From NCBI RefSeq assembly GCF_020640915.1, contig NZ_JADWDC010000045.1:1-40072 (forward strand): a stretch of 40,072 bases of DNA, in the 5' to 3' direction. This DNA is from Waterburya agarophytonicola KI4 (GTDB lineage Bacteria > Cyanobacteriota > Cyanobacteriia > Cyanobacteriales > Xenococcaceae). Positions 7,204 through 39,872 of the stretch are shown here, piece by piece; the first letter of the stretch is position 1; every line of letters starts with the position of its first letter. The notes beneath the pieces were generated by a model. It saw only the letters and a program-made list of their open reading frames with translations, was not told the DNA's origin and did no database searches. The position numbers were made by a program, and so were the translations under genes.

Positions 7204-7209
7204 CTAAGG

Positions 7210-16755: not shown

Positions 16756-16756
16756 A

Positions 16757-18103: not shown

Positions 18104-18115
18104 TTAGGAGACACA

Positions 18116-21518: not shown

Positions 21519-21603
21519 ATAAATAATAATTGTGATAATTGTAAGAAATTCTTTTGCGGGTTTTTTCAGCTACGTAAACTACTGAGAGTGGCCCGATCGC
21601 TGC

Positions 21604-22254
21604 TCAATAAGCCCCTTGACGATTGAGAACTATTTTAATTGTTCTCAAAATTAATTTGAGGTCATATACTATTGACCATTGACACTGATAGCGAAGATCC
21701 AATTTGACAATTTCTTCAAAATCTTTGATCATAGACCTACCATGAACTTGCCATTCTCCAGTGATTCCCGGCTTAACCTTTAATCTTTCCCAGTGATGAA
21801 TTTGATAGTTTTGGACTTCATCTACAGTTGGAGGTCTAGTGCCAACTAAACTCATATCTCCTCGTAGAACATTCCAAAATTGAGGAAACTCATCTAAGCT
21901 AGTGCGACGCAAAAATTTACCCAAACAGGTAATACGCGGATCGTTGGCATTTTTGAAAAAATGACCAGAAACTTCGTTACAAACTTTGAATTTAAGTGCA
22001 TCTGCGTTGACAACCATAGAACGAAGTTTCCAAATTTTAAACGTTTTTCCGTAAAGTCCACAACGCATTTGACTATAGAATATAGGCCCTGGATCGGAAA
22101 TTGCCATGGCGATCGCAACTATGACAATGATGACACCAGTTAAGGTTAGTCCTAACAATGCACCTATAATATCGATTAGGCGTTTAAGGCGATTATTCAC
22201 CGAGGGGTGCATTGGTTTAGGCTTAAAATTAGGTTCTGCGAGACTTAGATTCAT
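21604..22254 (-). CDS. Undecaprenyl-phosphate sugar-1-phosphate transferase (ExoY/WcaJ-type)
   Basis: A 216-residue monotopic membrane enzyme of the bacterial sugar transferase family (PF02397). One hydrophobic N-terminal helix (about 28-52) precedes the catalytic part, which shows KLRSM, the DEFPQFWNVLRGDMSLVGTRP block with the catalytic D-E pair, and KPGITGEWQVHGRS. It lacks the extra N-terminal four-helix region of full-length WcaJ, as in ExoY-like short forms. It should start the repeat unit by loading the first sugar phosphate on undecaprenyl phosphate. Together with the following Alg13/Alg14-like pair, it would make the lipid-linked disaccharide. Confidence 0.92.
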   Translation of the reverse strand: MNLSLAEPNFKPKPMHPSVNNRLKRLIDIIGALLGLTLTGVIIVIVAIAMAISDPGPIFYSQMRCGLYGKTFKIWKLRSMVVNADALKFKVCNEVSGHFFKNANDPRITCLGKFLRRTSLDEFPQFWNVLRGDMSLVGTRPPTVDEVQNYQIHHWERLKVKPGITGEWQVHGRSMIKDFEEIVKLDLRYQCQWSIVYDLKLILRTIKIVLNRQGAY

Positions 22255-22306
22255 AAAGAACTAGAAAATGAATATTGTCGATGATATTGCTAATAAAAGC
22301 TATGAG

Positions 22307-22837
22307 CTAGCTTGCTATTATTTCAGGGGTAAAATCTCTTTGTTTGGTATTAGTGGTTAAAAGAGAGGTAGTGAAAAGATCTAAAGAATGACAAATTAGA
22401 CTAACAGCCTGTGGACTTAAAACTGAAAAATTTGCTCTAAATGGATTTCTGACAAATGCTAATAACTGCTCTAAGGAAAATGCAACTGGCACTCCTTTAT
22501 TGAGTAGTTGATAAGCTAGTTCAAGTTGATGATTATCAACATGCTCATTTAGCTCGGCTCTCCTTGGAACTAATATATAAGGAGCATTAATTTTTTCCGC
22601 TAACAAAAGTGTTCCTTCTCCACAATGTCCAATAACTAAATTGGCTGACATTGCCAGCTCCTGGAAATCTTTTGCTGGTAATAGCTTATGAGATTCAATT
22701 CCATGGGGAAAGTAAATGCAGTTACCATACTGAACGATGATTTTTTCTTTAATCCAATGCTGTTTGCTTAAAATTGAAGTCCACACCATCAAGCGATCAA
22801 ATTGAAATTTTTCTGTTCCAACAGTGACTAAAATCAT
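22307..22837 (-). CDS. Alg13/PssE-like glycosyltransferase catalytic subunit
   Basis: A 176-residue protein corresponding to the C-terminal half of a GT28/Alg13 enzyme. It opens MILVTVGTEKFQFDRL and contains VIGHCGEGTLLLAEKINAPYILVPRR and NEHVDNHQLELAYQL, the UDP-sugar binding elements of that family. Such proteins work as pairs with an Alg14-like membrane anchor, which is the next gene upstream (22885-23328, 47 bases away). In rhizobial exopolysaccharide synthesis the PssD/PssE pair adds the second sugar. The same role is inferred here. Confidence 0.87.
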   Translation of the reverse strand: MILVTVGTEKFQFDRLMVWTSILSKQHWIKEKIIVQYGNCIYFPHGIESHKLLPAKDFQELAMSANLVIGHCGEGTLLLAEKINAPYILVPRRAELNEHVDNHQLELAYQLLNKGVPVAFSLEQLLAFVRNPFRANFSVLSPQAVSLICHSLDLFTTSLLTTNTKQRDFTPEIIAS

Positions 22838-22884
22838 TAAATATTTCTCTTGTTAGTTATCTATATTTTGAATGATTATCAACT

Positions 22885-23328
22885 CTACACAGGAATTAAT
22901 TCTGCTTGGGGATATCTAACTTTCAAAGATGGCCAACGAACATATAAACGATTGATCAGAGGAAGAACAAGTTTAGCAGAAAGACTTATATCTTCTACTC
23001 TAGTAATCGATTCAATAAAAATAACTTGACTGCCAAACATCCTGCCTATAACTATAAAAGGAACAGATTCACCAGCACCCGTAGTCATAATTAGTTTGGG
23101 TCTTTCTTGAGAAATAATTTTCCAAGCTAGAAATAAATTCTTAACCAAGTTTTTCAAGTTTCTATTAGTGGGACCATAAGCCCAATAGACTTGCTCTTGT
23201 TTTAATACAGATTCAGTCGAATGACTTTTTTGTGTTACCCAACAATGTTGTTTATCCTCCCAAAAATGTTTAAGGTTCACGAGGGTTCTAAAATGTCCAC
23301 CAGTTGAAGAAATGAGAATAATATCCAT
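22885..23328 (-). CDS. Alg14/PssD-like glycosyltransferase subunit
   Basis: A 147-residue protein corresponding to the acceptor-side half of a split GT28 enzyme. ISSTGGHFRTLVNLKHFW at the N-terminus has the G-G-H loop of Alg14-type proteins, with a conserved TTGAGESVPFIVIGRMFG and FIESITRVEDISLSAKLV following. It should recruit the PssE-like subunit to the membrane and bind the lipid-linked acceptor. It begins the minus-strand run 22307-23328 and is preceded by the 900-base gene-free region. Confidence 0.87.
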   Translation of the reverse strand: MDIILISSTGGHFRTLVNLKHFWEDKQHCWVTQKSHSTESVLKQEQVYWAYGPTNRNLKNLVKNLFLAWKIISQERPKLIMTTGAGESVPFIVIGRMFGSQVIFIESITRVEDISLSAKLVLPLINRLYVRWPSLKVRYPQAELIPV

Positions 23329-24232: not shown

Positions 24233-25585
24233 ATGCATACATACAATAGCGGAACTTTTATTGTTGGTTCTAGTGGCGAAGTTGATGTTGATTTTCTCTT
24301 TGATGGAGGCTGGTTTCGGGGAGAAATAGCTTTATTTAATGTCGAGGGGATGGAAGAATTGATCCCTGGCTCAGAAGCGTTTATGTTAGAAGCAGCCCGT
24401 AGAGCCTTAACTGACTCCGAACAGGGTCGCATAATTAATCAAGATGAAATTGAAGGGGCGAAATTTTCTACCACCGATTTCAATTGGGAGCGTGATTTTA
24501 ATACTGGAGAGTATATAGGAGCAAAAAGCTTTACCTTTAATCCTGGCGATGAGTTAGGTTTAATGATGGTACAGCATAAGACTGTACAAGAAACTTTCGA
24601 GAATCCCGATCGCATTAATGAATTTGGTAGATTTCCTTTATTCTCAATCCCAGAAGCCAATATAGGTGGTTCTTTACCGAATCAATTTGAATTTGTGGGG
24701 CTCGATGGAAATGGCATAATTGCTGGGGAAGATATGCGTATCTTTCAGGCGGATCGCGACTACAACGATGTGGTTTTGCAGTTTAGAGGTTTAGATAGCA
24801 ACTTTGCTTCTCTTGATGAGTATATTAATCCGACTCGGGATTTTAGAGATTTCCCAGTGGGGGAAAATTTGCTGGAATATGCAGAAAGCCGAGTTTTAAA
24901 TGAAAAAGACCCTGGAGTATTTCAAGTAGGAGAGTCAGGGGAAGTAACCATCGATTTTCTTTATGATGGAGGATTATATGAAGGGGCAGTGGGGATCTTT
25001 AGTTTAGAAGATATTAATCCCGAAGATCTAACCACAGAAGAGTTTACTCAAAAAGTAGTAGAGCGAGTACAAAGCAATTCTACCGAAGGTCATATAGTTA
25101 TTCAAGACAGCACTGAAGGAGCAAAATATTCAGCAGAATTAGAGTGGGAGCAAGCTATACCAGAGGGAAAAAATCACTTTAATGATGGGAGCTATTTAGG
25201 AACTAAGACTTTCACTATGACTCCAGGAGATAATTTTGCCCTGGTTATGATTCCTGATGGTAATTTTAATCAAGCCATAGGTGCAAATGAATCTGTAATG
25301 AAGAATGACTTGATTTTTTCGATGCAGGGAGCTAATTTTCAAAATCAGGTTCAATTTGTCAATGTCAAAACGTCTGCTGGCGGCGGTACTATTGCTAGCT
25401 TTGAAGATGATCGCATCGATCGCCCTTCTAATGAAGATTATAACGACATTGTTTTAGCAATCGAAGGAATTCAAGAACCTATTGGTTTATTTTCTCTAGA
25501 AGACCGCGTTTTTCCCGATCGTAATTGGGCAGAATTACCCATTGGTGAAGACAATATTCTTCCTTACTTCGATGGTAATGAATAG
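24233..25585 (+). CDS. Double DUF4114-type protein (B copy)
   Basis: A 450-residue acidic protein with two modules (about 1-215 and 228-450), paralogous to the protein at 8470-9825. Each module starts with the strand set G-x-F-x-V...V/I-D-F-L-F/Y-D-G-G and ends with a D-Y-N-D signature (D176-Y-N-D-V and E401-D-Y-N-D-I), then an R/N-D/W tail. No signal peptide or membrane helix is visible. No good ribosome-binding site precedes the ATG. Its first module is the closest relative of the N-terminal modules of the two following large proteins. It is probably a small companion or adaptor in the same operon (78 bases to the next gene). Confidence 0.85.
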   Translation: MHTYNSGTFIVGSSGEVDVDFLFDGGWFRGEIALFNVEGMEELIPGSEAFMLEAARRALTDSEQGRIINQDEIEGAKFSTTDFNWERDFNTGEYIGAKSFTFNPGDELGLMMVQHKTVQETFENPDRINEFGRFPLFSIPEANIGGSLPNQFEFVGLDGNGIIAGEDMRIFQADRDYNDVVLQFRGLDSNFASLDEYINPTRDFRDFPVGENLLEYAESRVLNEKDPGVFQVGESGEVTIDFLYDGGLYEGAVGIFSLEDINPEDLTTEEFTQKVVERVQSNSTEGHIVIQDSTEGAKYSAELEWEQAIPEGKNHFNDGSYLGTKTFTMTPGDNFALVMIPDGNFNQAIGANESVMKNDLIFSMQGANFQNQVQFVNVKTSAGGGTIASFEDDRIDRPSNEDYNDIVLAIEGIQEPIGLFSLEDRVFPDRNWAELPIGEDNILPYFDGNE

Positions 25586-25663
25586 CTATCTAGATTGAAA
25601 TTTACTTAACACTTAAATGTTTACTTACAGCTATTCTCTTTTACTTTAAAGATATATCAAACT

Positions 25664-28600
25664 ATGACTATGTTTAACACTGGGACTTTCTCTGTTGATG
25701 AAGATGGTCAAATTGAAGTCGACTATCTTTTTGATGGAGGTTGGTTTCGAGGAGAACTAGCTGTCTTTAGCCTAAAGGGAATGGAAGATTATGAACCTGG
25801 ATCTGAATCATTTATTCAAGAAGCAGCCAGAAGAGTTTTAACCAACTCCAAAGAAGGCAAAGTGATTCTTCAAGACGATCTTGAAGGTGCTAAGTTTAGT
25901 ACAGATTTACCTTGGGAAAGAGATTTTAATACGGGACAGTATCAAGGAGTTAAAACATTTAATCTAACTCCTGGGGATGAAGTCGCTTTAATGCTAGTGC
26001 AACACACTACTGTTCAAGAGACTTGGGAAAATCCGGGGAAAACTGGCGAGTTTGGCAAGCAAGTGATCTTCTCACTCCCCGAAGCTAATTTATCTGCTTC
26101 CTCCATGGATGGGTATGAAGTGATAGATGTTAATGGCAATGGCACAATTGCTTTTGAAGATGTACCCATTTTCCAAGCTGATAAAGACTATAACGATCTA
26201 ATTATCGATCTCCAAGGTTTAGAGGGGAATTTACCTACTTTATCAGACAATATCAATCAGACTCGGGACTGGCGTAAAACTCTAATTTTGTACGATAGGA
26301 AACTACAAAAATTATCAGATGACGAGCTGGTGATGCATCTAGAGTTCGACCTCGTTAGGGAAAACACCTTACCAGATTCATCTCCTCTCGGGGGAAACAA
26401 CCCAGGAAAATTAAGCAATGGGGCAGAATTTAGTAATGGTAGAGTCGATCTAGGCGATCGCAATGACATTATTAAAGTTGCTGACTCCCAAGACATTAAC
26501 CTCGGTACTCATTCCCAGCGCACAGTTTCTCTGTGGTTTAAAGTTGACAATAAAAATATTGGCAATGGCAAACAAATTATTTATGAAGAAGGTGGCTTCA
26601 ATGGCGGCGATGCAGGACTAAATATTTATATAGAAAACAGTCGACTCTATTTTGGTGGTTGGAATCGCGACCGCGGAAATTGGGCGGGGACTTATTTGTC
26701 TAGCGACGCTATTTACGCCGATACCTGGCATCATGCAGTCTTAGTTTTGGATGCAGAAGCGGGAGTTGGCACAACTCAACCAGAGGTTTTAACTGCCTAT
26801 CTCGATGGGGTGAAAATCGGCGTAGGGTCGGGAATCGAGCTTACATCCCATACCGATAATGTTGGTTTAGGGGGATTAAATGAAACTACCCGATTTCATA
26901 ACGGAGTGGGGCAAACCAATGAAGAACATAGTTCGATCGGCAGTTTGGCAGACGCTCGCATTTATAACCGAGCTTTGACCGAGTCAGAAATCTCTTTGTT
27001 ATATAATCCCAACCATGCGCCAGTAGCAAAAGACGATTTATCTACTACCATCGAAAACTCAGAGGTAATTATCTTTGCTATTGATTTACTTGCCAATGAT
27101 ACCGATCTTGATGGCAACACTTTGAACTTGGTCTCAGTGGATAATGCGATCGACGGTAATGTATCTCTCGATCTTGACGGAAATATAATCTTTGCTCCCG
27201 AACCAAATTTTAGCGGCGAAGCCAGCTTTGAATATACCATCAGCGACGATGTGGGGGAAATTGACACTGCCCAGGTTACAGTTAACGTACTTCCTGCCAA
27301 AGATCCTATAGCTTTGGGTACTAACCTCCATCCTTTGGCAGAATGGTCGCCCCAGTTGCCTTTTATTAATGCTTTTAAAACTGCTCGTAAATGGATTCCT
27401 CAAGACTGGGATCGGAAAACTAAATATCGCTGGTATCCCAATATTTGGGACACGGGAGAATTTAAAGAATTAGATTTGGATGAAAATGGTTGGGTCAAAT
27501 CTTTACCCGCACCAGAAGATTCCGAACAATATACCAGTGTCGGTACGATTATGTATCGCAATGTAGGTGAATATCCCGCAGGAAAATATGTTGTTCTTTA
27601 TGAGGGAGAGGGGTCTATTGTTTATGGGCTAGATGCGGTCAAAGATGAGACAGCGTCTACGACCGGTAGGGATGTAATTGATGTCAACCCTAGCAATGCT
27701 GGTATTTGGTTGCGCATCACACAAACCGATCCTAATGAAACAGGGGATTACATTAAAGATATTAAGGTTATTCATGAAGACTATGAATATGCCAGCAACC
27801 AAACTTTTAATCCCGAGTTTCTCGAAAAAGTTCAGCTCTTTGATACCATCCGTTTTATGGATTGGATGGAAACGAATAATTCTCACCAAGGAGAATGGAG
27901 TACCAGACCAACTCCTGATAATTCCCTCTTTTTTGGTGGGGTTGCCTCGGTGGAAGACATGGTGGAATTGGCTAACCGCACTCAGACTAATCCCTGGTTT
28001 AATATGCCCCACCAGGCGACAGATGAATATATCGCTAATTTTGCGAACTACGTTAAAGAAAATTTAGATCCCGAACTTAAAGTTTACGTAGAATACTCCA
28101 ACGAAGTTTGGGGTGGCTTGGCTCAAGGATGGTGGGTCGAACAACAGGGAAAATCAGAGTTTGCTGATTCAAAAGAAGGGAATTTTGCTAAACGAATAGA
28201 TTGGTTTAGCAAACGTACCACGGAGATTACCCAGATTTGGGACGAAGTTTATGGAGAGGAAAAAGAGCGAGTAATTGGGGTTATGGGGGTGCAGGCAGCA
28301 AACCTTTGGACGGGAAGAAGGGCATTAGATTATGCTTGGACAGATAATCCCCTCGACCATGAAGAGTATGGTATTGATGCCGTTGGTATTGGTCCTTATT
28401 TTGGTCGCTACCTGGGCAAACCTTACTTCGCTTCTCAGATGGAAGCATGGCTTGACGACGACGATCCCGACCTACCTTTGGATAATCTTTTCCAAGAAAT
28501 CACTGAGGGAGGAATTTTACAACATACACCCAAGCAAGGAGCTTTACAAGAAGCCTACGACTGGACGAGCAACTATGTAACTCTGGCGGAAGAACAGGAT

Positions 28601-29575
28601 CTGGATTTGCTGGCATACGAAGGCAGTCAGCACGTTACGGGAATTTATGGGACGCAATACAATCAAGCGATCGCCAATCTATTTATTGAAGCCAATCAAG
28701 ACCCCCGCATGGGAGAAATCTATCAAGAATACTTTACTACCCTTGATGAATTGGGAGTAGACCTTGCGGTCAACCATAATGATGTTAGCCCCTATAACCG
28801 ATGGGGTAGTTGGGGGACTTTGGAAAATATCCATCAAGAAGACTCGCCCAAATATAACGCCTTAAAATCTCTAACGGCTAAAAGTAATTTACCCCCCGTA
28901 TTAGGGGAGTTGGAGACTAATCTTGCCGACCTTAATATATTACTGGAGGGAGAATCTCTAGAGTTAGGGATTGAATATACCGATGTTGGACTGACTGACT
29001 ATCATTCTATTGAGTTTGATTGGGATGATGGCAGTGTTGCAGACGTAGAAGAAAAAGAACCTTTGTTGGGGGATTTAGGGGAAATATCGGGCAGTCATAT
29101 CTATCAAAAGCCCGGTATCTATAGCCCTACAGTCACAATTACCGACAATAAAAATCTAACTAGCAGCAAATCTTTGACCGTCTCTGTTGCCCAAAAAGTA
29201 GAGATCGACTGGAATCCTGATGTTGATAATTCCGATATCGACATAACAGGTAACGGCAATATCAAAGTAGCTATTTTAGGTCGGTCGAATTTCGATCCTG
29301 CAACTATCGACCCTACCACCATTAGGGCAGACGACGAGCGAGAGATTTTACTCAATGGTCGAGATATTAGTGCGATCGCTAATGACTTCGTCCTGAAAGA
29401 TAGCAATAGTGATGGGTTCTTAGATCTAGAGATTACTTTCTCTAAATCTAGCCTGAGAAATGTTGTTGATGTTGATTTAGAACCGTTTGTTAGCCAGCAG
29501 CAAATTTATTTATTTGGCAGTAGTTCGAGCTTGGCAGGAGGTTTTTTCTTGGGTACTGAGGAATTACGAGATTGA
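25664..29575 (+). CDS. Large modular protein 1: DUF4114-LamG-cadherin-like-barrel-PKD-C-domain
   Basis: A 1303-residue protein. Modules by residue: DUF4114 type (1-205, ending A172-D-K-D-Y-N-D-L), LamG/concanavalin-like (225-450, W354-HH and NRAL), tandem cadherin-like (452-545), glycosidase-like barrel (about 550-1070), PKD-like (1078-1176, FDWDDGS), and a C-terminal module with DSNSDGFLDLEITF, a calcium-site-like loop (1179-1303). In the barrel, E-Y-S-N813-E814-V-W and L-A-Y985-E986-G-S-Q-H are the likely acid/base and nucleophile motifs of a clan GH-A-type fold. The barrel resembles proteins annotated as cellulose-binding in other bacteria; activity is not known. No Sec signal is visible. 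Two ATGs (25664, 25670) are possible starts. Confidence 0.88.
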   Translation: MTMFNTGTFSVDEDGQIEVDYLFDGGWFRGELAVFSLKGMEDYEPGSESFIQEAARRVLTNSKEGKVILQDDLEGAKFSTDLPWERDFNTGQYQGVKTFNLTPGDEVALMLVQHTTVQETWENPGKTGEFGKQVIFSLPEANLSASSMDGYEVIDVNGNGTIAFEDVPIFQADKDYNDLIIDLQGLEGNLPTLSDNINQTRDWRKTLILYDRKLQKLSDDELVMHLEFDLVRENTLPDSSPLGGNNPGKLSNGAEFSNGRVDLGDRNDIIKVADSQDINLGTHSQRTVSLWFKVDNKNIGNGKQIIYEEGGFNGGDAGLNIYIENSRLYFGGWNRDRGNWAGTYLSSDAIYADTWHHAVLVLDAEAGVGTTQPEVLTAYLDGVKIGVGSGIELTSHTDNVGLGGLNETTRFHNGVGQTNEEHSSIGSLADARIYNRALTESEISLLYNPNHAPVAKDDLSTTIENSEVIIFAIDLLANDTDLDGNTLNLVSVDNAIDGNVSLDLDGNIIFAPEPNFSGEASFEYTISDDVGEIDTAQVTVNVLPAKDPIALGTNLHPLAEWSPQLPFINAFKTARKWIPQDWDRKTKYRWYPNIWDTGEFKELDLDENGWVKSLPAPEDSEQYTSVGTIMYRNVGEYPAGKYVVLYEGEGSIVYGLDAVKDETASTTGRDVIDVNPSNAGIWLRITQTDPNETGDYIKDIKVIHEDYEYASNQTFNPEFLEKVQLFDTIRFMDWMETNNSHQGEWSTRPTPDNSLFFGGVASVEDMVELANRTQTNPWFNMPHQATDEYIANFANYVKENLDPELKVYVEYSNEVWGGLAQGWWVEQQGKSEFADSKEGNFAKRIDWFSKRTTEITQIWDEVYGEEKERVIGVMGVQAANLWTGRRALDYAWTDNPLDHEEYGIDAVGIGPYFGRYLGKPYFASQMEAWLDDDDPDLPLDNLFQEITEGGILQHTPKQGALQEAYDWTSNYVTLAEEQDLDLLAYEGSQHVTGIYGTQYNQAIANLFIEANQDPRMGEIYQEYFTTLDELGVDLAVNHNDVSPYNRWGSWGTLENIHQEDSPKYNALKSLTAKSNLPPVLGELETNLADLNILLEGESLELGIEYTDVGLTDYHSIEFDWDDGSVADVEEKEPLLGDLGEISGSHIYQKPGIYSPTVTITDNKNLTSSKSLTVSVAQKVEIDWNPDVDNSDIDITGNGNIKVAILGRSNFDPATIDPTTIRADDEREILLNGRDISAIANDFVLKDSNSDGFLDLEITFSKSSLRNVVDVDLEPFVSQQQIYLFGSSSSLAGGFFLGTEELRD

Positions 29576-29640
29576 TACACGACAAAACGATAAACGATCG
29601 AATAAAAATTTTTAAGTTATTTCTAGCAGGAGAGTGAAAT

Positions 29641-32600
29641 ATGAACGAGCAAACAGGAATTTTTAAGGTTGATTCTAGCGGTGAAATTGCAGTCGACTAT
29701 CTTTTTGACGGGGGATGGTTTCGCGGAGAATTAGGAGTTTTTAGCCTCGCAGGAATGGAGGATTATGAACCAGGAGAAACAGCATTTATTAAGGAGGCTG
29801 CTCGTCGGGCATCAAGTAATTCCGAACAAGGACATATCTTAATTAGTGATGAAATAGAAGGAGCAAAATTTTCTGCCGACTTACCTTGGGAGAGAAATTT
29901 TAATACTGGAACATATCAAGGAATTAAAACCTTTAATCTTACTCCTGGGGATGAAGTCGGATTAATGATGGTGCAGAACAACACCATTAGCAAGACTCAA
30001 AAACAACCCCAGAAAACTAGCGAGTTTGGCAAGACAGTAATCTTTTCGATGCCCGAAGCCAATCCTTTCAATTCGTCTTCTAACGGGAATGAAATAGTCG
30101 ATGTCAATGGCAGCGGGACGATCGCTTGGGAAGATGTTCCCCTAGCCCAAGCAGACAAGGACTATAATGATTTGATTTTAGACCTCCAAGGACTAGAAAG
30201 CAATCTTGCTACCCTTTCAGATAATATCAATCCCACAAGGGATTGGCGGAAAAGCGTTGTTTTATGGGATGGAGATTTAGCTCAATTATCAGATGACGAT
30301 CTGGTAATGCATCTAGAATTAGATGAGGAGAAGAAAAAGACAGCATCAGACTCTTCTCCTGAAGGTAAAAATAATCAGGGAAAACTAAATAAAGGTGCTA
30401 AATTCCGCGATGGTGTAGTGGAATTGGATGGCAAAAATGATTTCATTGAAGTCAAAGATTCTAGCGATATTAATACTAATACCCATGCCAAACGCACTAT
30501 TTCTATTTGGTTTAAGGTAGACGATAAAGATATTGCCAATCGCCAGCAAATTATCTACGAAGAAGGAGGCTACCAAAAAGATGATGGTGGACTCAATATT
30601 TATATAGAAGATGGTCAAATTTATTTTGGCGGTTGGAATCGTAGTGGGGGTAACTGGACTGGGACTTATTTAGCTAGCGACGATTTAAGTTCTAATACTT
30701 GGCATCACGCGGTTTTAGTTTTGGATGCAGAACCAGGAGTCAATACCGTCCAAGAAGATGCTTTTACCGCTTATTTAGATGGGGTAAAAATTAGCTCTGG
30801 GGAAGGAATGGAATTAACTTCCCATAGCGATGATATTGGTATTGGCGGTTTAAACGAAACTACCAAATTTCACGACGAACCAGGGTCGAAAAATAGCAAG
30901 CTGAGTTTGGGTGGCAGTATCGATGATGTTCGCCTATATAATCGCGCTTTAAGCCCGCGAGAAATATCTTACTTGTTCAGTCCCAACCACGATCCCAGTG
31001 CCGTAGACGACGAGGTTCTGACCGTAGCCAATACAGAAGTTATTCTTTTGGCTTCTAGCCTTCTGGACAATGATAGCGATCGCGATCGCAATCGTTTAAC
31101 CTTAACAGCAGTGGATAATGCTGTTAACGGTACTGTCACAATCGACGAAGCGGGTAATGTCGTTTTTACTCCCGCAGCAGGTTTTGAGGGAGATGCTAGC
31201 TTTGAATATACCGTTAATGACGGAAAGGGTGGAAGCGATACTGCCACAGTTGCCGTAACCGTACTTCCTGCTAGCGAACCAATTCCTTTAGGCACAAATC
31301 TACACCGCCTGGCTGATTGGTCGCCCCAATTCCCTTTTCTCAATGCTTTTGAATCTGCCCGCCAGTGGATTCCCCAGTCTTGGGGCGTAATCCCCAAAGA
31401 AGAAGGGGTAGGTTTTCAATATGTCTGGGATACGGGAGAATTTGCCGATATAGATCTAGATGCTGATGGCTGGGTCAAGACTTTACCCGCACCCGAAGAC
31501 GAGCCTGAATATAGCAGCGTCACTACTGTGATGTTTCGTAACGTAGGGGATTATCCAGGGGGAAAATATGTTGTCCTTTATGAAGGAGAAGGGACGATTG
31601 AATACGGTCTTGATGCGGTTAAAGACAAATCAGCTTCTACTCCAGGACGAGATGTAATTGATGTGTCTCCTTCTGCGGCGGGTATATTATTACGCATCAC
31701 CGAGACAGATCCTGATGAAACTGGGGAATATCTACGGGATATTCAAGTAATACCCGAAGAATATGAATACGCTCAAGATCAAATCTTTAATCCACAATTT
31801 CTGGAAACAAATCAGCATTTTAATACCCTGCGGTTTATGGATTGGATGGCAACCAATCATTCAACTCAAGGAGAATGGAGCGATCGCCCTACCCCAGACA
31901 GTTCCATCTTTTCAGGAGAAATTGCTTCAATTGAGGCAATGGTGGAATTGGCAAATCGTACCGATACCGATCCTTGGTTTACCATGCCTCACATGGCGAC
32001 GGACGAATATGTTACCAATTTTGCCCAATACGTCAAGGATAATTTAGATCCCGAACTTAAAGTTTACGTCGAATATTCTAACGAGGTTTGGAATAATGAC
32101 TTTGCCCAAGGCTGGTGGATTGAAAACCAGGGAAAAGAAGAGTTTGTTGATTCTACCATTGGTGACTTTGGCAAGCGGATGGATTGGTTTGGCAAGCGCA
32201 CTACCGAAATCACCCAAATGTGGGATGAGGTATATGGAGAAGATAAAGAACGAGTTATTGGAGTAATCGGGGCGCAGGCTGCTAACAATTGGACTGCCAG
32301 ACGACCTTTAGCTTATTCTTGGACTGATACCCCTCTTTCTCATGAAGAATACGGCATAGATGCGATCGCCATCGCTCCTTATTTTGGTAGCTATATTGGA
32401 CAACCAAAATATGAAGCAGAGCTTGAAAGCTGGATCGATAGTGAAGACGAAGATAGCGAAAATCTTGCTCTCGATAATCTCTTTGTCGAAATAAACGAAG
32501 GAGGGGCTTTAGACTATGCTCCCCCCCAAGGAGCATTGCAGCAAGCCTATACCTGGACGGAAGGCTATGCAGTCCTAGCAGATTCCCATGGCTTGGATTT

Positions 32601-33576
32601 GCTGACTTACGAAAGCGGTCAACATCTCAATGGCAGCCGCGGTGTTGAAGAAAATGAAGCGATCGGCGATCTGTTTATTGCAGCTAATCGAGATCCGCGC
32701 ATGGGTCAAATCTATCAAGAGTATTTTACTACCCTCAATGAGTTGGGCGTAGATTTATCGCTCAACTATACCGATGTCAGTCGATATAACAAATATGGTA
32801 GTTGGGGACTTCTAGAAAATATTGGGCAAACAGACTCGCCAAAATACAACGCTATCAAAAACGCTTCGACGAAAGTTACCAATGACTTACCCCCCGAACT
32901 AGGCAAAATCAATACTAACCTAGGTAGTCTCAATATTCTTTTAGTAGGGGAATCCCTAGACCTAAATTTCAATTACACCGATGTCGGCTTAACTGACTAT
33001 CACGAAATTGAATTTGATTGGGGCGATGACACAGCCCTAGATATCTTAGAACAAGAACCATTATTAGGAGAAGTTGGCAAAGTTGCTACTAGTCACTCAT
33101 ATAGCAACCCTGGTATATATGAACCTGTGGTAACCATAACTGACGATGACAATCTTTCTACTAGTAAGTCTTTAACCGTTACCGTAGCCAAAAAAGTAGC
33201 CATAAACTGGAATTTCGACTCAAATAATTCCGATCTTAATTTATCTGGAAACGGTTCAATTAAAGTGGCTATTTGGGGTACGACGGATTTTGACCCCACT
33301 ACGATTGACCCCACTAGTATTAGAGCCGATGACAATCGAGATATATTGCTCGACGGTCAAGACGTTAGTGCGATCGCTAATGATTTTCAGTTTAGAGATC
33401 TCAATAGCGATGGGTTAACAGATTTGGAAATTACTTTTTCAAAATCAGAGTTGAGGGGAATTGTTGAAACCAATTCCGAACCATTCTTAAGCGAGCAGCA
33501 GATCTATTTATTCGGTAGTGCCGCTCAACCAGATGGGAGTTTTTTCTTGGGTATGGAACAAGCAGATTTATCTTAA
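29641..33576 (+). CDS. Large modular protein 2: same architecture as protein 1
   Basis: A 1311-residue paralogue that keeps the whole order of protein 1: DUF4114 type (about 1-205), LamG-like (about 225-450), cadherin-like (about 455-545), barrel (about 550-1075), PKD-like and C-terminal module. The putative catalytic motifs are intact: E-Y-S-N-E815-V-W-N and L-T-Y-E991-S-G-Q-H. The APYFGSYIG loop and MDWM-x-TN block are also present. AGGAG at 29628-29632 lies eight bases before the ATG. It follows protein 1 by 65 bases. No signal peptide or membrane segment. Likely a secreted polysaccharide-active or -binding protein. Confidence 0.88.
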   Translation: MNEQTGIFKVDSSGEIAVDYLFDGGWFRGELGVFSLAGMEDYEPGETAFIKEAARRASSNSEQGHILISDEIEGAKFSADLPWERNFNTGTYQGIKTFNLTPGDEVGLMMVQNNTISKTQKQPQKTSEFGKTVIFSMPEANPFNSSSNGNEIVDVNGSGTIAWEDVPLAQADKDYNDLILDLQGLESNLATLSDNINPTRDWRKSVVLWDGDLAQLSDDDLVMHLELDEEKKKTASDSSPEGKNNQGKLNKGAKFRDGVVELDGKNDFIEVKDSSDINTNTHAKRTISIWFKVDDKDIANRQQIIYEEGGYQKDDGGLNIYIEDGQIYFGGWNRSGGNWTGTYLASDDLSSNTWHHAVLVLDAEPGVNTVQEDAFTAYLDGVKISSGEGMELTSHSDDIGIGGLNETTKFHDEPGSKNSKLSLGGSIDDVRLYNRALSPREISYLFSPNHDPSAVDDEVLTVANTEVILLASSLLDNDSDRDRNRLTLTAVDNAVNGTVTIDEAGNVVFTPAAGFEGDASFEYTVNDGKGGSDTATVAVTVLPASEPIPLGTNLHRLADWSPQFPFLNAFESARQWIPQSWGVIPKEEGVGFQYVWDTGEFADIDLDADGWVKTLPAPEDEPEYSSVTTVMFRNVGDYPGGKYVVLYEGEGTIEYGLDAVKDKSASTPGRDVIDVSPSAAGILLRITETDPDETGEYLRDIQVIPEEYEYAQDQIFNPQFLETNQHFNTLRFMDWMATNHSTQGEWSDRPTPDSSIFSGEIASIEAMVELANRTDTDPWFTMPHMATDEYVTNFAQYVKDNLDPELKVYVEYSNEVWNNDFAQGWWIENQGKEEFVDSTIGDFGKRMDWFGKRTTEITQMWDEVYGEDKERVIGVIGAQAANNWTARRPLAYSWTDTPLSHEEYGIDAIAIAPYFGSYIGQPKYEAELESWIDSEDEDSENLALDNLFVEINEGGALDYAPPQGALQQAYTWTEGYAVLADSHGLDLLTYESGQHLNGSRGVEENEAIGDLFIAANRDPRMGQIYQEYFTTLNELGVDLSLNYTDVSRYNKYGSWGLLENIGQTDSPKYNAIKNASTKVTNDLPPELGKINTNLGSLNILLVGESLDLNFNYTDVGLTDYHEIEFDWGDDTALDILEQEPLLGEVGKVATSHSYSNPGIYEPVVTITDDDNLSTSKSLTVTVAKKVAINWNFDSNNSDLNLSGNGSIKVAIWGTTDFDPTTIDPTSIRADDNRDILLDGQDVSAIANDFQFRDLNSDGLTDLEITFSKSELRGIVETNSEPFLSEQQIYLFGSAAQPDGSFFLGMEQADLS

Positions 33577-33638
33577 TCGCGTTATCTGGTCTATTTTCTA
33601 CTTTCGTTTTTGTATATCTAACCAAATGTTTAAAGTAA

Positions 33639-36600
33639 ATGCAGAACAATAATCAATCACCAGCACTTCAGTTTGAAGGAGAGTATAACTTTGGCACAGA
33701 AGGACAACCTGGCGTTTACGACCGGCGTACCATTTCTTTGTGGTTTAAAGTTGACGAGCTACAAAACAATCAAGAACTAGTAATTTATGAAGAAAATGGC
33801 ACGACGGAGGGTTTAAATATCTATGTCAAAGACAGTCGTTTATTCTTCGATACTTGGAATCAGACTGGGAATGAATGGTCGGGGAGTTATGCTTCTAGCA
33901 ATGCTATTACCTCCGACACTTGGCATCATGTAGGATTAATTCTAGATCGAGAATTGGAGAACGATTTCATTGCTTACCTCGACGGAACAAATATTGACGA
34001 GGGAGAAGGTAACCCTACAGATAAAGTTGATGTGGGTATTGGTGGTTTAAGTCCATCTGGGGAATTAGAAGAAGATTCGGTTAATTCTGGATATAGCGTC
34101 AAAAATATTGGAGTATACGATCGCGTTTTAACTCAAGCGGAACTAGAATTGATCTTCGATCCCAACTACGAGCCAGAACCAGTTAAGGATAGTGCTGTAA
34201 CCATTGAAAATACAGAAGTTATCTTGCTTGCTTCTCGACTATTGGCTAATGATTTAGATGCCAACGGCGATCGCTTAACTATTAAAGGAGTTGGGAATGC
34301 TACTGATGGTCAGGTGGCTCAGAATAGTGACGGTAATATTATTTTCACCCCAGCATTTGGCTTCAGTGGTGAAGCTAGCTTTGAATATATAGTAGAAGAT
34401 AATGCTGGCAAAGCATCTACTGCTACAGTAACGGTTGACGTCCTCTCAGAAAATCGCTCTGTTCCCATCGGTACTGGTCTTCATCGCGTTGAAGGAGTAT
34501 CCCCAGAGTTACCTTTTCTCAACGGTATCAAAACTGCTCCAGGGTGGTTGACTCAAGACTACAATGTAACTACAGATGATCAGGGAAATTTCATTAATGT
34601 TTGGAATACAGCGGAAAACAACCTTTTAGATTTAGATGAAAATGGTTGGATCAAAACCATTCCCGATCCTGAAGATGACCCCCAATATTCCAGTGTCGGG
34701 ATGTTACTTTACCGCAATTTGAATTATTATCCCGACGGTAAGTATGTCGTGCTATATGAGGGAGAAGGTTCAATTGAATATAATTTTGATGCCCGAATAG
34801 ATCAATCTGAATCTGCTCCTGGTAGACATGTCTTAAACGTAAACCCCAGCAGTAACGGTGTCTGGCTGAGAATTACCGACACCGACCCCAATGAAACGGG
34901 CGACTATATTCGCAATATTCGTGTCGTACCCGAAGAATATGAAGATATAGCCGAAGAAACGTACAATCCAGACTTTATCAACACCATAGCCAACTTTGAC
35001 ACTTTAAACTATTTAAACTGGGCGGGAATTAATAGCTCGACGGAAATTGAGTGGAGCGATCGCTCTACTCCTAAAAGCTCTATTTTCGCTGAAGATCTGG
35101 TATCCATTGAAGAGATGGTGGAGCTTGCCAATCAAACCCAAACTAATCCTTGGTTTCATCTTCCCCACCAGGCTACCGATGAATATGTGACTAACTTTGC
35201 CGAATATGTGGCGGAAAACCTCAATCCAGAATTGGATGTGTACTTAGAATATTCCCATGAAATTTGGAATCCTAGTTACGATCAGGCTCGCTGGATTAGA
35301 GAGGAGGGAGAAGCTCAATGGTCGGATAATAGCTTTGTTGGTGGTTTTGGCAAACGGTTAGATTGGTATAGCCAGCGCACTGTTGAAGTTACCCAAATCT
35401 GGGAGGAAGTATTTGCTGAGGAGAAAGAAAGAGTAATTGGCATAGTTGGGGGAGAAGCAGCTAATACCGCTACCATTGATCGCATCCTAGAATATAATTG
35501 GGCGGAAGATCCTTTATCCAATGAAGAATATGGCATAGATGCGATCGCTATTGCCCCCGATACCGCTTCCTATTTAGAAAATCCCGCCATTGCAGATGAA
35601 GTTGCCAGTTGGACTACCGATAGTGATGGTGGAATAGATAAATTATTTACCGAACTCACAGAAGGCGGATTAGTTAGTAATAGCCCCTCTGGAGGAGCTT
35701 TTCAGCAAGCCTACGACTACACGGAGACTTATTCAAACATAGCCGACTTAGAAAACTTAGACTTAATTACCTATGAAGTCGGTCAAAAACTTCCCGTAAA
35801 CTTTGGCGGTAATAATAACCAGGCGATCAAGAATTTGTTTAACACCGCCAAGAGAGATCCTCGTATGGAAGAACTTTCTCAAGAATATTTCACTACTCTT
35901 AGTGAAACAGGGGCAGATCTTTCCACCAGCTTTAACGATCCTAATGCTTATAATCAATGGGGTAGCTGGTGGAAAATGGATGAAAATAATCTCAATGGTT
36001 CGACCAAGTTAGAAACGATAACTTCTTTAATCGCCAAAAATGATTATTCTCTTGCTCCCCAAATAGGAGTACTAGAAAGTAATCTTTCTCGACTCAATTT
36101 AATCTTAGAAGGTGATTCTTTAGAATTAGCTACTAACTATACTGATGTTAATACCGAAGAAGAACATAGCTTCAAGTTGGATTGGGGAGACAATAGCGAG
36201 GTAGTTGAAGAACAGCAAGATCCTCTATTGGGCAAGGCAGGTGACATATCCGCTAGTCATATTTACGATAGGGAAGGAAATTATACCGTCAGCTTAACCA
36301 TCACTGATCAGCAAGAAAAAGTTGCCCAAGAAGACATATCTTTTTCTGTCGCTAAAAAAATCACGATAGATTGGAAACCCTACTCTACAAGCCAACAAAC
36401 AGATTTAGGGGAAAATGGTCAAGTACAAGTGGCAATTTTTGGTCGAGAAGATTTTGCCGTCACAGATATTGAACCTACTTCAGTCAAAGCTAGCGATCGC
36501 AAAAATGCTCTACTAAATGAAGATGGTGTAAGTGCTTCAGCCGATCTCACTGAATCACGAGATGTTAACGGTGATGGATTTGCCGATTTAATTTTCTCTT

Positions 36601-36725
36601 TTGATAAAGCAATTTTAAGATCTGCGATCGCAACCGATGACGAGTCGATGATCAATGATAATGAACTGTATTTATTTGGTAGCAATTCTGCGTTAGATAG
36701 TGGTTTCTTTTTAGGAATGGAATAG
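33639..36725 (+). CDS. Large modular protein 3: no DUF4114 module, diverged barrel
   Basis: A 1028-residue paralogue lacking the DUF4114 module. It begins within the LamG-like fold (1-175), then cadherin-like (178-269), barrel (about 275-800), PKD-like (about 805-905) and C-terminal module. The barrel is the most diverged of the four: the acid/base motif reads E-Y-S-H540-E541-I-W instead of S-N-E, the second motif is Y-E713-V-G-Q-K instead of Q-H, and the PYFG loop is PDTA. The two glutamates remain, but surrounding residues do not, so it may be a pseudoenzyme or have changed specificity. No clear ribosome-binding site. It follows protein 2 by 62 bases. Confidence 0.85.
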   Translation: MQNNNQSPALQFEGEYNFGTEGQPGVYDRRTISLWFKVDELQNNQELVIYEENGTTEGLNIYVKDSRLFFDTWNQTGNEWSGSYASSNAITSDTWHHVGLILDRELENDFIAYLDGTNIDEGEGNPTDKVDVGIGGLSPSGELEEDSVNSGYSVKNIGVYDRVLTQAELELIFDPNYEPEPVKDSAVTIENTEVILLASRLLANDLDANGDRLTIKGVGNATDGQVAQNSDGNIIFTPAFGFSGEASFEYIVEDNAGKASTATVTVDVLSENRSVPIGTGLHRVEGVSPELPFLNGIKTAPGWLTQDYNVTTDDQGNFINVWNTAENNLLDLDENGWIKTIPDPEDDPQYSSVGMLLYRNLNYYPDGKYVVLYEGEGSIEYNFDARIDQSESAPGRHVLNVNPSSNGVWLRITDTDPNETGDYIRNIRVVPEEYEDIAEETYNPDFINTIANFDTLNYLNWAGINSSTEIEWSDRSTPKSSIFAEDLVSIEEMVELANQTQTNPWFHLPHQATDEYVTNFAEYVAENLNPELDVYLEYSHEIWNPSYDQARWIREEGEAQWSDNSFVGGFGKRLDWYSQRTVEVTQIWEEVFAEEKERVIGIVGGEAANTATIDRILEYNWAEDPLSNEEYGIDAIAIAPDTASYLENPAIADEVASWTTDSDGGIDKLFTELTEGGLVSNSPSGGAFQQAYDYTETYSNIADLENLDLITYEVGQKLPVNFGGNNNQAIKNLFNTAKRDPRMEELSQEYFTTLSETGADLSTSFNDPNAYNQWGSWWKMDENNLNGSTKLETITSLIAKNDYSLAPQIGVLESNLSRLNLILEGDSLELATNYTDVNTEEEHSFKLDWGDNSEVVEEQQDPLLGKAGDISASHIYDREGNYTVSLTITDQQEKVAQEDISFSVAKKITIDWKPYSTSQQTDLGENGQVQVAIFGREDFAVTDIEPTSVKASDRKNALLNEDGVSASADLTESRDVNGDGFADLIFSFDKAILRSAIATDDESMINDNELYLFGSNSALDSGFFLGME

Positions 36726-36726
36726 T

Positions 36727-36826
36727 AATACCATTTTGAATTTGAAACACGAATGATTCTTGTAGGGGCGAATAGTTATTCGTCTCAACGATTCATATGT
36801 GAGAAAAGCTATTTAATTTGGTATAG
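36727..36826. repeat. MITE-like element before protein 4
   Basis: About 100 bases with imperfect terminal inverted repeats (AATACCATTTTGAATTT at the left, AATTTGGTAT at 36815-36824) and an inner GGGGCGAATAGTTATTCGTC hairpin. The GTAGGGGCGAAT...ATTCG core resembles short dispersed repeats common in cyanobacterial intergenic DNA. It fills nearly all of the 123-base gap between proteins 3 and 4. No transposase is encoded. Confidence 0.55.
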
Positions 36827-36848
36827 AAATCAAGAGATAACTAAATAA

Positions 36849-39800
36849 ATGAATACTAATCATTTGTATGATGAGCGTACCGTTTCGTTATGGTTTAAGG
36901 TTGATGAGGCTGAAAATAACGATAGGTTAACAATCTATGAAGAAGATGGTGGCATCCAGGGACTAAATATCTACGTAGAAAATAACTACCTATGGTTCAA
37001 AACCTGGAGTCAAACGGGAAACGAGAGATCGGGTTATTATCTTTCTACTGATGCGATCTCTAGTGATACCTGGCATCATGCAGTCATCGTCTTAAACACA
37101 TCCCAAACAGAGCCGTTTACAGCCTACCTCGATGGGTTGAGTATAGATCCTCAACAGGGGGAGCAGCCAAAAAATATTGGGGTGGGAGTAGGTGGTTTAA
37201 ATTCAGTAGGAGATAATTTAGCAGCAGATGATTCTGTCTATAGTGTTAAAGATATTCAAGTCTACGAGCGATCGCTTTCTCAAGCAGAAGTTGCTTTACT
37301 ATATCAACCAAACAAAGAACCTGTAGCTACTGAAGATATATCTCTGACAGTAGAAAACAATCAAATTATTCTATTTCCCGATTTTTTGCTAGATAACGAT
37401 CTAGATCCAGACAGAGATACTCTAAAGATTGAGGCAGTGGGCAATGCTGTTAACGGTAATGTTGCTCAAGATTCGGAAGGTAATATAGTTTTCACTCCAG
37501 AAACTAATTTCAATGGTGATGCCAGCTTTGAATATACCGTCAATGACAATCGTGGTGGGACGGCTACAGGAATAGTCAATTTGATGGTATTACCAGAGAC
37601 TAGTCCTATTCCTGTGGGAACTAATTTACACCGTTTGGCTGATTGGTCAGCTCAACTACCTTTTCTCAATGGTTTTAAATCTGCTAGGAGATGGTTAACT
37701 CAAGATATTAACGTCACCACCAATGAAGAAGGGCAATATATTAATACTTGGAATACAGGTGAGTTTTCTAGTTTAGATTTGGACGAAAATGGGTGGGTTA
37801 AATCTATACCCGAACCTGAAGACGAACTCCAATATACCAGCGTGGGTACTATTTTATATCGAGATTTGGGGGTATATCCAGGAGGTAAATATGTGGTTCT
37901 CTATGAGGGAGAAGGCACAATCAAATATGATTTTGATGCGGTGAAAGATGAATCTGCTTCAACTCTTGGTCGAGATGTAATTGATGTTAATCCAACTAAC
38001 GCAGGTATTTGGTTGAGCATTACAGACATCGATCCCAACGATACGGGAAATTATTTACGGGATATTCATATCTTGCCTGAGGAATACGAGTATGCCGACG
38101 ATCAAATATTTAATCCAGATTTTTTAGAAAAAATTCAGCCCTTTAATACCCTCCGTTTTATGGACTGGATGGCGACCAATAACTCACAACAGGGGGAATG
38201 GAGTAACCGCCCCACTCCCGAAAGCTCGGTTTTCTCTGGAGAAATTGCTTCAATTGAATCGATGGTGGAATTGGCTAATCGCACTGATACCGATCCTTGG
38301 TTTACGATTCCCCATCAAGCTACCGATGAGTATATTACTAATTTTGCCAAATATGTCAAAAATAATTTAGATCCCGAACTTCAGGTATATATAGAATACT
38401 CCAATGAAGTTTGGAACCGCGATTTCGATCAGGGTTGGTGGGTAGAAGATCGGGGTATTGAAGAATTTGCCGATTCTAATGTGGGAGATTTTGGCAAGCG
38501 CATCGATTGGTATAGCAAGCGCACTGTTGAAATTGCCCAGATGTGGGATAAAGTATTTGACGAGGATAAAGCCAGAGTAATCGGGGTAATGTCGGGTCAA
38601 GCTGCCAACTCTTGGACGGCAAAAAGAGCTTTAGAATATCATTGGGCGGAAGATCCCTTATCAAGCTCAGAATACGGTATAGATGCGATCGCTTTTGCAC
38701 CCTATTTTGGCAGTTACTTAGGTAAGTCAATTTATGAAGCTGAAATAGAAAGCTGGACAGAAGATTCTGATGGCGGACTAGATAAGCTATTTGAGGAATT
38801 AAATACTGGAGGTTTATTGGAAGATGCACCTCCAAGTGGTAGTTTGCAACAGTCTTATTATTGGACAGAAAAGTATACCAATCTTGCCGATCTGCACGAC
38901 TTAGATTTAATAACCTATGAAAGTGGTCAACATCTAAGGGGAAACAATGGAGTAGAAGATAACCAATCGATTACCAATCTTTTTACAACTGCCAACAAAG
39001 ATCCCCGCATGGGAGAAATATACCAAGAATATTTTGGTACTTTGAATGAACTGGGTGTTGATTTATCAGTTAACTATACTGACGTTAGTGGATATAACAA
39101 GTGGGGTAGCTGGGGTGCCTTAGAACACATCAATCAATCTAACTCACCCAAATATAATGTTTTAAAGTCCTTGACTGCTAATAATAATAATAATAATCTC
39201 CCTCCTCGATTAGGAAAAATTAATACTAATCTTTCTAATCTAGGAATTATGGTTGAAGGGAATACCCTCAATATCAATGCTAACTATACTGATGTGGGAT
39301 TACAAGACTATCACAATGTTGCGTTTGATTGGGGCGATGAAAGTCCCATTAACACTAAACAGCAAACTCCCTTACTTGGGGAAATTGGCATAGCCGAAGG
39401 AAGCCACGTTTACAATTCAGTAGGCACTTATACTTCGACCATAACCGTTACTGATGATGATAATTTGCTGGCTAAAAAAAACGTGTCTGTAACAGTGGCA
39501 AAAAAAATTGATATTGATTGGAAACCTAGTTCCAATAGCAAACAAATACTCTTGGCTGGAAACGGAATGGTTAAAGTTGCTCTTTTCGGCGATGAAGATT
39601 TTGATGTAACCAATATAGATTTAGATTCAGTAAAAGCTAATGATAGTAGAAATTCGCTTTTGAATAATCAGGGAATTAAAATAGTTAGTAATCAAATAAG
39701 TTTCCAAGATGTTGATTTAGATGGATTTCAAGATTTAATATTAGCTTTTGATAAATCTAGTTTGCGATCTGTTGTTGACACTGATGATGACTTGTTAATT

Positions 39801-39872
39801 AACGATAGCCAAATTTATGTGCTTGGTACGTTTTTCCAATTAGAAACTAGTTTTTTCTTCGGAGCAGAGTAG
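36849..39872 (+). CDS. Large modular protein 4: no DUF4114 module, intact barrel motifs
   Basis: A 1007-residue paralogue. It starts inside the LamG-like fold (1-155, opening YDERTVSLWFKVDE, so the first strand seen in proteins 1-2 is lost), then cadherin-like (157-249), barrel (about 254-780), PKD-like (about 785-885) and C-terminal module with DVDLDGFQDLILAF. The barrel has E-Y-S-N-E520-V-W-N and I-T-Y-E691-S-G-Q-H, like proteins 1 and 2. The ATG lies about 22 bases after the MITE-like element and has no good ribosome-binding site, so the 5' end may have been remodelled by that insertion. No signal peptide. Confidence 0.86.
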   Translation: MNTNHLYDERTVSLWFKVDEAENNDRLTIYEEDGGIQGLNIYVENNYLWFKTWSQTGNERSGYYLSTDAISSDTWHHAVIVLNTSQTEPFTAYLDGLSIDPQQGEQPKNIGVGVGGLNSVGDNLAADDSVYSVKDIQVYERSLSQAEVALLYQPNKEPVATEDISLTVENNQIILFPDFLLDNDLDPDRDTLKIEAVGNAVNGNVAQDSEGNIVFTPETNFNGDASFEYTVNDNRGGTATGIVNLMVLPETSPIPVGTNLHRLADWSAQLPFLNGFKSARRWLTQDINVTTNEEGQYINTWNTGEFSSLDLDENGWVKSIPEPEDELQYTSVGTILYRDLGVYPGGKYVVLYEGEGTIKYDFDAVKDESASTLGRDVIDVNPTNAGIWLSITDIDPNDTGNYLRDIHILPEEYEYADDQIFNPDFLEKIQPFNTLRFMDWMATNNSQQGEWSNRPTPESSVFSGEIASIESMVELANRTDTDPWFTIPHQATDEYITNFAKYVKNNLDPELQVYIEYSNEVWNRDFDQGWWVEDRGIEEFADSNVGDFGKRIDWYSKRTVEIAQMWDKVFDEDKARVIGVMSGQAANSWTAKRALEYHWAEDPLSSSEYGIDAIAFAPYFGSYLGKSIYEAEIESWTEDSDGGLDKLFEELNTGGLLEDAPPSGSLQQSYYWTEKYTNLADLHDLDLITYESGQHLRGNNGVEDNQSITNLFTTANKDPRMGEIYQEYFGTLNELGVDLSVNYTDVSGYNKWGSWGALEHINQSNSPKYNVLKSLTANNNNNNLPPRLGKINTNLSNLGIMVEGNTLNINANYTDVGLQDYHNVAFDWGDESPINTKQQTPLLGEIGIAEGSHVYNSVGTYTSTITVTDDDNLLAKKNVSVTVAKKIDIDWKPSSNSKQILLAGNGMVKVALFGDEDFDVTNIDLDSVKANDSRNSLLNNQGIKIVSNQISFQDVDLDGFQDLILAFDKSSLRSVVDTDDDLLINDSQIYVLGTFFQLETSFFFGAE

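Follow-up and report, generated by a model that had tools for sequence, protein, structure and literature searches.

The array genes and their modules

The window analyzed in this study comprises positions 1 to 40,072 of contig NZ_JADWDC010000045.1 of the cyanobacterium Waterburya agarophytonicola KI4 (Xenococcaceae). It contains a tandem array of five open reading frames (ORFs) on the forward strand, which encode a small protein with two DUF4114 modules (D) followed by four large paralogous proteins (P1 to P4). Each paralogue carries an enzyme-like domain of ~520 residues, here termed the core, between its Ig-like and PKD-like modules. The gaps between the five ORFs are 78, 65, 62 and 123 bases in this order. 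A preliminary description of the same DNA had reported a tandem array opened by a small double-DUF4114 protein, and all five ORFs were found at the places given there. Of the range of 1003 to 1311 residues stated for the four large proteins, the upper value was recovered, whereas the shortest protein, taken as the longest ORF, has 1007 residues (P4), followed by 1028 for P3.

Protein D (24233-25585) is 450 amino acids (aa) long and consists of two DUF4114 modules of ~205 aa, with PF13448 matched twice by Pfam, and has no enzyme core. Its modules can be aligned with the DUF4114 modules of P1 and P2, and from its sequence D is presumed to be a calcium-dependent lectin. P1 (25664-29575; 1303 aa) is composed of DUF4114, LamG and Ig/cadherin-like modules, the core (27305-28876), a PKD-like module and a C-terminal module. 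P2 (29641-33576; 1311 aa; core 31279-32868) has the same architecture. P3 (33639-36725; 1028 aa; core 34458-36032) comprises LamG, Ig/cadherin-like, core, PKD and C-terminal modules, an architecture shared by P4 (36849-39872; 1007 aa; core 37605-39176). The cores of P2, P3 and P4 were placed by alignment of the cores.

Pfam identified DUF4114, LamG_3 and Big_9/Cadherin_5 in P1 and P2, and LamG_3 and Big_9/Cadherin_5 in P3 and P4, with no DUF4114 match in the latter two. A PKD_4 match lies towards the end of all four paralogues and exceeds the Pfam cut-off in P3 only. The LamG, cadherin-like and PKD-like parts of the module order described earlier are thus borne out by Pfam; the label 'calcium-site-like' for the C-terminal module is unconfirmed, with no Pfam match over the cut-off. 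When full-length P1 was compared with the sequences of the Protein Data Bank (PDB), matches were confined to the Ig-like region (to an RTX protein, E 6.7e-11) and, more weakly, to the PKD region. The pairwise identity of the four paralogues is 47-64% over their shared length, so they are not recent duplicates. All four are free of cysteine and have a net charge between -99 and -140. A search for promoters and terminators in the window gave no more than expected by chance.

Predicted fold of the core

The AlphaFold2 model of the P1 core has a mean pLDDT of 95.8 and a pTM of 0.94. It was calculated with a 64-row alignment consisting of 60 locus rows, obtained from the 79 loci described below, and the four window cores. 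We interpret the model as a (beta/alpha)8 barrel into which a beta-sandwich is inserted. In P1 core numbering, the barrel strands are 4-7, 181-183, 229-234, 260-264, 323-328, 357-362, 434-440 and 487-490; this order is our reading of the DSSP string, in which the short strands 31-34, 492-494 and 504-506 were omitted.

In the model, E267 (E814 of P1; codon 28103-28105) is located directly after strand 4 (260-264) and is preceded by N266, while E439 (E986 of P1; codon 28619-28621) ends strand 7 (434-440). A barrel with these two glutamates on strands 4 and 7 had been named in the preliminary description as the outcome that would support a glycosidase-like centre, and the confident alpha/beta model agrees with it. 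In clan GH-A, a group of glycoside hydrolase (GH) families, the acid/base glutamate is preceded by an asparagine and follows strand 4, and the nucleophile glutamate ends strand 7.

A Foldseek search with the model resulted in 45 PDB matches at E<=0.001. The best match was a beta-1,4-galactanase (3.7e-7), followed by GH10 xylanases, and entries labelled GH5, GH53, GH26 and GH164 were also among the matches. The best neighbors are for the most part enzymes of families that we take to belong to clan GH-A. Further matches were an arabinofuranosidase, an exo-agarase, designed enzymes and Cwp19.

The beta-sandwich insert spans residues 64-157 of the P1 core, between strands 1 and 2. The corresponding segment of P4 (37743-38087, forward strand) was predicted to fold alone, with a pLDDT of 93.6. 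The 64-row alignment has seven invariant columns, and five of them (D59, G62, W63, G101 and G103) lie in the insert or its entry. For 47 of the 64 insert rows, a comparison with Pfam gave weak scattered matches only. The insert was also considered as a known carbohydrate-binding module; this was rejected, as no PDB fold matched at E<=0.001 and the best match was a chitin-binding domain with E 0.13.

Active site and differences among the paralogues

The active-site positions are highly conserved. In the 64-row alignment, E439 is found in all 64 rows, the strand-2 arginine R183 and the strand-6 tyrosine Y365 in 63 each, E267 in 63 (one gap) and N266 in 62 (one histidine, one gap). The loci contain 134 core domains, 114 of them longer than 420 aa; among the 109 distinct sequences of these, E267 is present in 107 and E439 in 106. 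Departures from the signature are seen in four rows: P3, a Thiohalocapsa core that accounts for two rows, L028 and L135 being one and the same place, and a row that contains a gap. The Thiohalocapsa protein (L028:8231-11572) carries two cores in one chain, the first lacking both catalytic glutamates and the second having an intact signature. The second core is the row used in the 64-row alignment.

The motifs EYSNEVW and YExGQH, reported earlier as common to the four proteins, occur together only in P2 and P4. P1 has YEGSQH, and P3 has EYSHEIW and YEVGQK. The active site is canonical in P2 (E815 and E991) and in P4 (E520 and E691), and from their sequences both proteins look catalytic. P1, with two changes near the site (G441S and N270G), is probably catalytic as well. 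In P3, both glutamates are retained, while R183 is replaced by asparagine (R183N; N457), N266 by histidine (N266H; H540) and Y365 by aspartate (Y365D; D641). The asparagine expected before the acid/base glutamate in clan GH-A is therefore a histidine in P3. Its tip branch in the core tree has a length of 0.55, compared to 0.15, 0.18 and 0.28 for the other three window cores. Taking these residues into account, P3 is a probable pseudo-enzyme and would act as a non-catalytic binder.

The interpretation favored here, which we hold with moderate confidence, is that P1, P2 and P4 are secreted GHs acting on the polysaccharide of the cell itself, with P3 and the double-DUF4114 proteins binding to it. 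The enzymes would form a clan GH-A-like family that is apparently undescribed, as judged against Pfam, NCBIfam, the PDB and small GH5 and GH10 profiles, a set to which CAZy did not belong.

Alternatively, the proteins could be non-catalytic matrix adhesins, with a lectin function of the barrel and a structural role of the array. Binding modules predominate in the array, and active-site residues are lost in P3 and in a Thiohalocapsa core, both of which would suit such a role. In addition, DUF4114 has been tied to sugar binding in other organisms. According to the accessible parts of the respective papers, it is a mannose-binding domain in the Acanthamoeba protein AcMBP-1 (PMC11934332), and in PilY1.1 of Myxococcus a calcium- and exopolysaccharide-binding role was proposed for it and mutation of the proposed calcium site was tied to exopolysaccharide-dependent motility (PMC9109919). 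The near invariance of both glutamates, the preceding asparagine, the strand-2 arginine and the strand-6 tyrosine is not expected of a pure binder, and we consider the adhesin role quite unlikely.

Distribution of the core family

The 64 members of the core alignment were scanned against Pfam and NCBIfam, and no match over the cut-off was found in either library. Among the 25 of 29 Pfam families listed, the weak scattered matches reached a best E of 0.00013 in one member, and one GH family was included (Glyco_hydro_76; E 0.083, one member).

Relatives of the core were found at 79 loci of a genome contig collection, in 27 of 100 related genomes and in 18 of the 291 genomes that cover the phylum, where four of the 18 are partial or broken by stop codons; the window genome is counted in both genome sets. 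Furthermore, 25 plasmid records contain a core. In the core tree, one side of 24 rows comprises the window cores, the cyanobacterial relatives, L009 and two proteobacteria, and the other 40 rows include thiotrichs, methanotrophs, Burkholderiales, Acidobacteria, Planctomycetes, Armatimonadota, Cohnella and others. The distribution of the family is broad and patchy. Several of the relatives are 550-600 aa long and contain just one core. Expansions were observed in Thiothrix fructosivorans (G102, L012) with eight matches, some of them fragments, and in Leucothrix arctica (G107, L047) with ten; both are filamentous bacteria. L009 is a contig filed as Candidatus Gracilibacteria that has the gene order of Hydrococcus and whose core is closely related to the one in L006, so its filing is probably a binning error.

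A phage origin was rejected, since phage records contained no match to the core and a search of viral structures gave generic neighbors, some of which are named glycosyl hydrolases.

In the 25 plasmid records, the features containing the core are named 'calcium-binding', 'hypothetical' or 'cadherin-like', and some are unnamed. One is named after a fused GH16 domain and one is called 'ABC transporter substrate-binding'. The statement that such a barrel is annotated as cellulose-binding elsewhere found no counterpart among these names. In a plasmid of Paracoccus marcusii (L144:7459-14367), the core lies inside a protein annotated as a family 16 glycosylhydrolase, amid polysaccharide genes. Literature searches, with papers accessible in part, gave no paper that could be tied to the core, and the accessible text of the synechan paper does not contain the term 'glycoside hydrolase' (PMC8205485).

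The exopolysaccharide cluster and conservation of the link

From its gene content, the window carries a Wzx/Wzy-type exopolysaccharide cluster. On the forward strand (10247-19543), Pfam matches identify genes for a Wzc/Wzz-type protein, a glycosyltransferase (GT) of family GT2, a hexapeptide transferase, two GT4 proteins and a Wzx flippase (16757-18103), followed by a putative Wzy (18116-19543), which has no Pfam match and whose name is a guess. The GT2 gene (12479-13472) appears frameshifted, as a single 334-aa GT2 protein of L032 is matched by two ORFs that overlap each other, and this may be either decay or a sequencing error. On the reverse strand, a GT2, an initiating sugar transferase (Bac_transf; 21604-22254) and a GT28-C and Alg14-like pair are located at 20511-23328, and a methyltransferase, a sulfotransferase (5156-6109), a GT2 and a GT4 at 4143-8452.

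On the far side of the exopolysaccharide genes, a second double-DUF4114 protein that is 43% identical to D is encoded on the reverse strand (8470-9825). Like the active-site losses in P3, it was not part of the preliminary description. A genome search revealed no further core copies: the four cores and the six DUF4114 modules, all over the PF13448 cut-off, are all those found in the genome, and all are in the window. A small protein with a PA14 domain is encoded within the exopolysaccharide region (19784-20467, reverse strand). PA14 domains often bind sugar.

The association with polysaccharide genes recurs in other cyanobacteria. In Xenococcaceae MO_188.B32 (L032), seven proteins with relatives in the window cluster come after the core. 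In the Hydrococcus-type contigs L005, L006 and L009, an initiating sugar transferase is flanked by two cores. The core adjoins a Wzy, GT or Wzx gene in Lyngbya, in Moorena and in one of two Crocosphaera loci, and a putative Wzy is one gene away from it in Geminocystis. With the window genes as probes, an exopolysaccharide-type neighbor was found at 15 of 23 cyanobacterial loci, L009 included; many loci are short, four of the 15 are from Moorena and the link of L011 is a hexapeptide transferase only. The use of window genes as probes favors cyanobacteria in this test.

Two further tests were considered. Among the matches listed in 38 genomes, a Wzx or Wzz gene is found at a distance of up to 20 kb from 12 of 63 core places, with 2.5 expected. 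These genomes are 20 of the 26 other related genomes with a match and those of 18 of the 79 loci, the window genome being excluded. Wzx matches below 36 bits, a cut set post hoc, and three short core pieces were removed, and Wzz matches below the family cut-off were kept. One of the 12 places (G107) is based on a Wzx match at the 36-bit cut and another (G105) is a partial core.

For the second test, 73 of the 79 loci have a match range, and 37 of these, each at least 18 kb long, were used as wide-flank loci. They were compared with 40 random 20-kb stretches; a set of 36 omits three stretches that overlap with others and a fourth that is close to a core copy. At least two exopolysaccharide-type genes were present at 8 of 37 core loci versus 0 of 36 random stretches (p 0.003) or 0 of 40 (p 0.002), so that the 40-set agrees. 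For at least one such gene, the numbers are 9 of 37 versus 3 of 36 (p 0.06) or 3 of 40 (p 0.04). When one of the two Moorena loci (L016 and L070) was dropped, at least two genes were found at 7 of 36 core loci versus 0 of 40.

Six of the 25 plasmid regions were opened. In Roseobacter pTB2, Thioclava and Paracoccus, the core lies amid glycosyltransferase and polysaccharide genes, and in Sulfitobacter and Gloeothece such genes are ~10 kb or less from it; the record of the sixth, Shinella, is without annotation. Cyanobacteria thus show a strong polysaccharide link, which is also seen on some alphaproteobacterial plasmids, but most of the other lineages examined show it weakly or not at all.

Possible sulfation and export

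With profiles for which two of the three seeds were taken from core loci, relatives of the sulfotransferase were found near 5 of the 79 core loci versus 0 of 36 controls, a difference that is not significant (p 0.15). They amount to nine proteins, and Lyngbya accounts for five of these. A neighbor of the Thioclava core is annotated as a sulfotransferase. These data give hints of a sulfated substrate in the sulfotransferase-bearing organisms.

A hydrophobic N-terminus was detected in 52 of 68 core homologues by a crude test, and the Fischerella relative L017 carries RTX repeats. In the window genome, one HlyB-type transporter exceeds its family cut-off. We infer that the window proteins are exported, and the same applies to their route.

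Proposed role

The predicted site would most likely act by a retaining double displacement, with the second glutamate of EYSNEVW as acid/base and the glutamate of YExxQH as nucleophile. The LamG, Ig-like and DUF4114 modules would keep P1, P2 and P4 on the polysaccharide, where the barrel enzymes may trim or remodel it extracellularly, while P3 and the double-DUF4114 proteins would be binders that do not cut. As substrate, the product of the surrounding cluster is most likely, perhaps in sulfated form.

Several observations weigh against this interpretation. Concerning the enzyme, the core has no match over the cut-off to any Pfam GH family, and its comparison with PDB sequences gave chance-level matches only. 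A profile link to GH5 or GH10 was not found, the hhalign probability being 0.3% with small profiles of 14 GH5 and six GH10 sequences excised by hand. The structural overlap is partial, with TM-scores by query length of 0.28-0.38 among the 45 Foldseek matches, in part because ~95 residues (64-157) form the inserted beta-sandwich; the clan assignment is therefore based on fold type and motif. Concerning export, a hydrophobic N-terminal signal was not seen by eye and RTX repeats were not found by Pfam in the five window proteins. Concerning the link, an exopolysaccharide-type neighbor was found at only 3 of 56 non-cyanobacterial loci with the window-gene probes, no more than 12 of the 63 core places listed are within 20 kb of Wzx/Wzz, and a profile search found no exopolysaccharide-type gene at 28 of the 37 wide-flank loci. 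The connection to the matrix suggested in the preliminary description is supported by the cyanobacterial loci, the related Xenococcaceae, five of the six plasmid regions and the enrichment tests. These 28 loci partly fit the outcome named there as a refutation, namely homologues mostly away from polysaccharide genes.

The scarcity of the link outside the cyanobacteria would also fit enzymes that break down foreign polysaccharide (algal, plant or from a neighbor's matrix) for food or competition, with the proximity to exopolysaccharide genes being incidental. Several homologues resemble lipoproteins by eye and in one case the fusion partner carries a GH16 annotation, which agrees with such a function. 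However, the host is a cyanobacterium, a matching cluster adjoins the core in another member of the Xenococcaceae, and the cores of Lyngbya, Moorena and Hydrococcus are situated inside exopolysaccharide gene runs. Every DUF4114 module found in the genome sits at the window cluster, and exopolysaccharide genes are enriched compared to random stretches. We regard degradation of foreign polysaccharide as unlikely.

A role as transglycosylases, which join or cross-link the polysaccharide rather than cut it, appears very unlikely. Retaining clan GH-A enzymes are able to transglycosylate, and multiple copies beside synthesis genes might suit the building of a matrix. On the other hand, transglycosylation is the less common activity in clan GH-A, and no sequence feature distinguishes it from hydrolysis.

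A wider version, which we put forward as a rather improbable extension, is a dedicated extracellular machine that builds a sulfated sheath, in which barrel enzymes of an undescribed clan GH-A-like family cut and rejoin the polysaccharide and are docked through the DUF4114 lectins and the repurposed dead barrel of P3, all co-encoded with its synthesis. If this were true, the dead and intact cores of Thiohalocapsa would make the pairing of live and dead barrels a recurring design.

Unless CAZy already includes it, the core would be a candidate for a new GH family. As a widespread and poorly annotated group of presumably secreted, enzyme-like proteins whose active-site signature is clear, the family allows a direct test of how matrix-forming bacteria, cyanobacteria among them, handle the polysaccharide that they make, and if active on sulfated polysaccharide, the core could also be a useful tool.

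Comparison with known systems

With clan GH-A (GH5, GH10, GH26, GH53, GH164), the core has in common the predicted barrel, the positions of the glutamates and the Foldseek neighbors. It differs in that there is no detectable sequence similarity, and in that several of the most highly conserved residues belong to the beta-sandwich between strands 1 and 2 or to its entry. GH148 (EngU) is similar as a clan GH-A-type enzyme with an inserted carbohydrate-binding module, CBM4; in the accessible part of its description, the EngU motifs are INNEN and VTEYN compared to EYSNE and YExGQ in the window cores, and the EngU insert is located between the two catalytic glutamates, whereas that of the window cores precedes both (PMC5725463).

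The DUF4114 modules of the window belong to the same Pfam family (PF13448) as those of AcMBP-1 and PilY1.1, but are doubled or fused to an enzyme-like core.

PslG and BcsZ are single enzymes and not a multi-copy lectin array. ExoK and ExsH have a GH16-type fold, unlike the core barrel. No sequence relation of PslG or BcsZ to the core was found, although no direct comparison was made. As far as the accessible text of the source goes, PslG of Pseudomonas aeruginosa and BcsZ are GHs encoded in exopolysaccharide operons, and PslG activity is important for Psl production (PMC6813494). Similarly, ExoK and ExsH of Rhizobium are described in the accessible part of another paper as extracellular endoglycanases that reduce the size of the organism's own succinoglycan, and a title cited there pairs ExsH with prsD/prsE (PMC4443731). 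By analogy of function, the nearest known kind would be a glycosidase encoded with the organism's own polysaccharide, as represented by PslG, BcsZ and ExsH.

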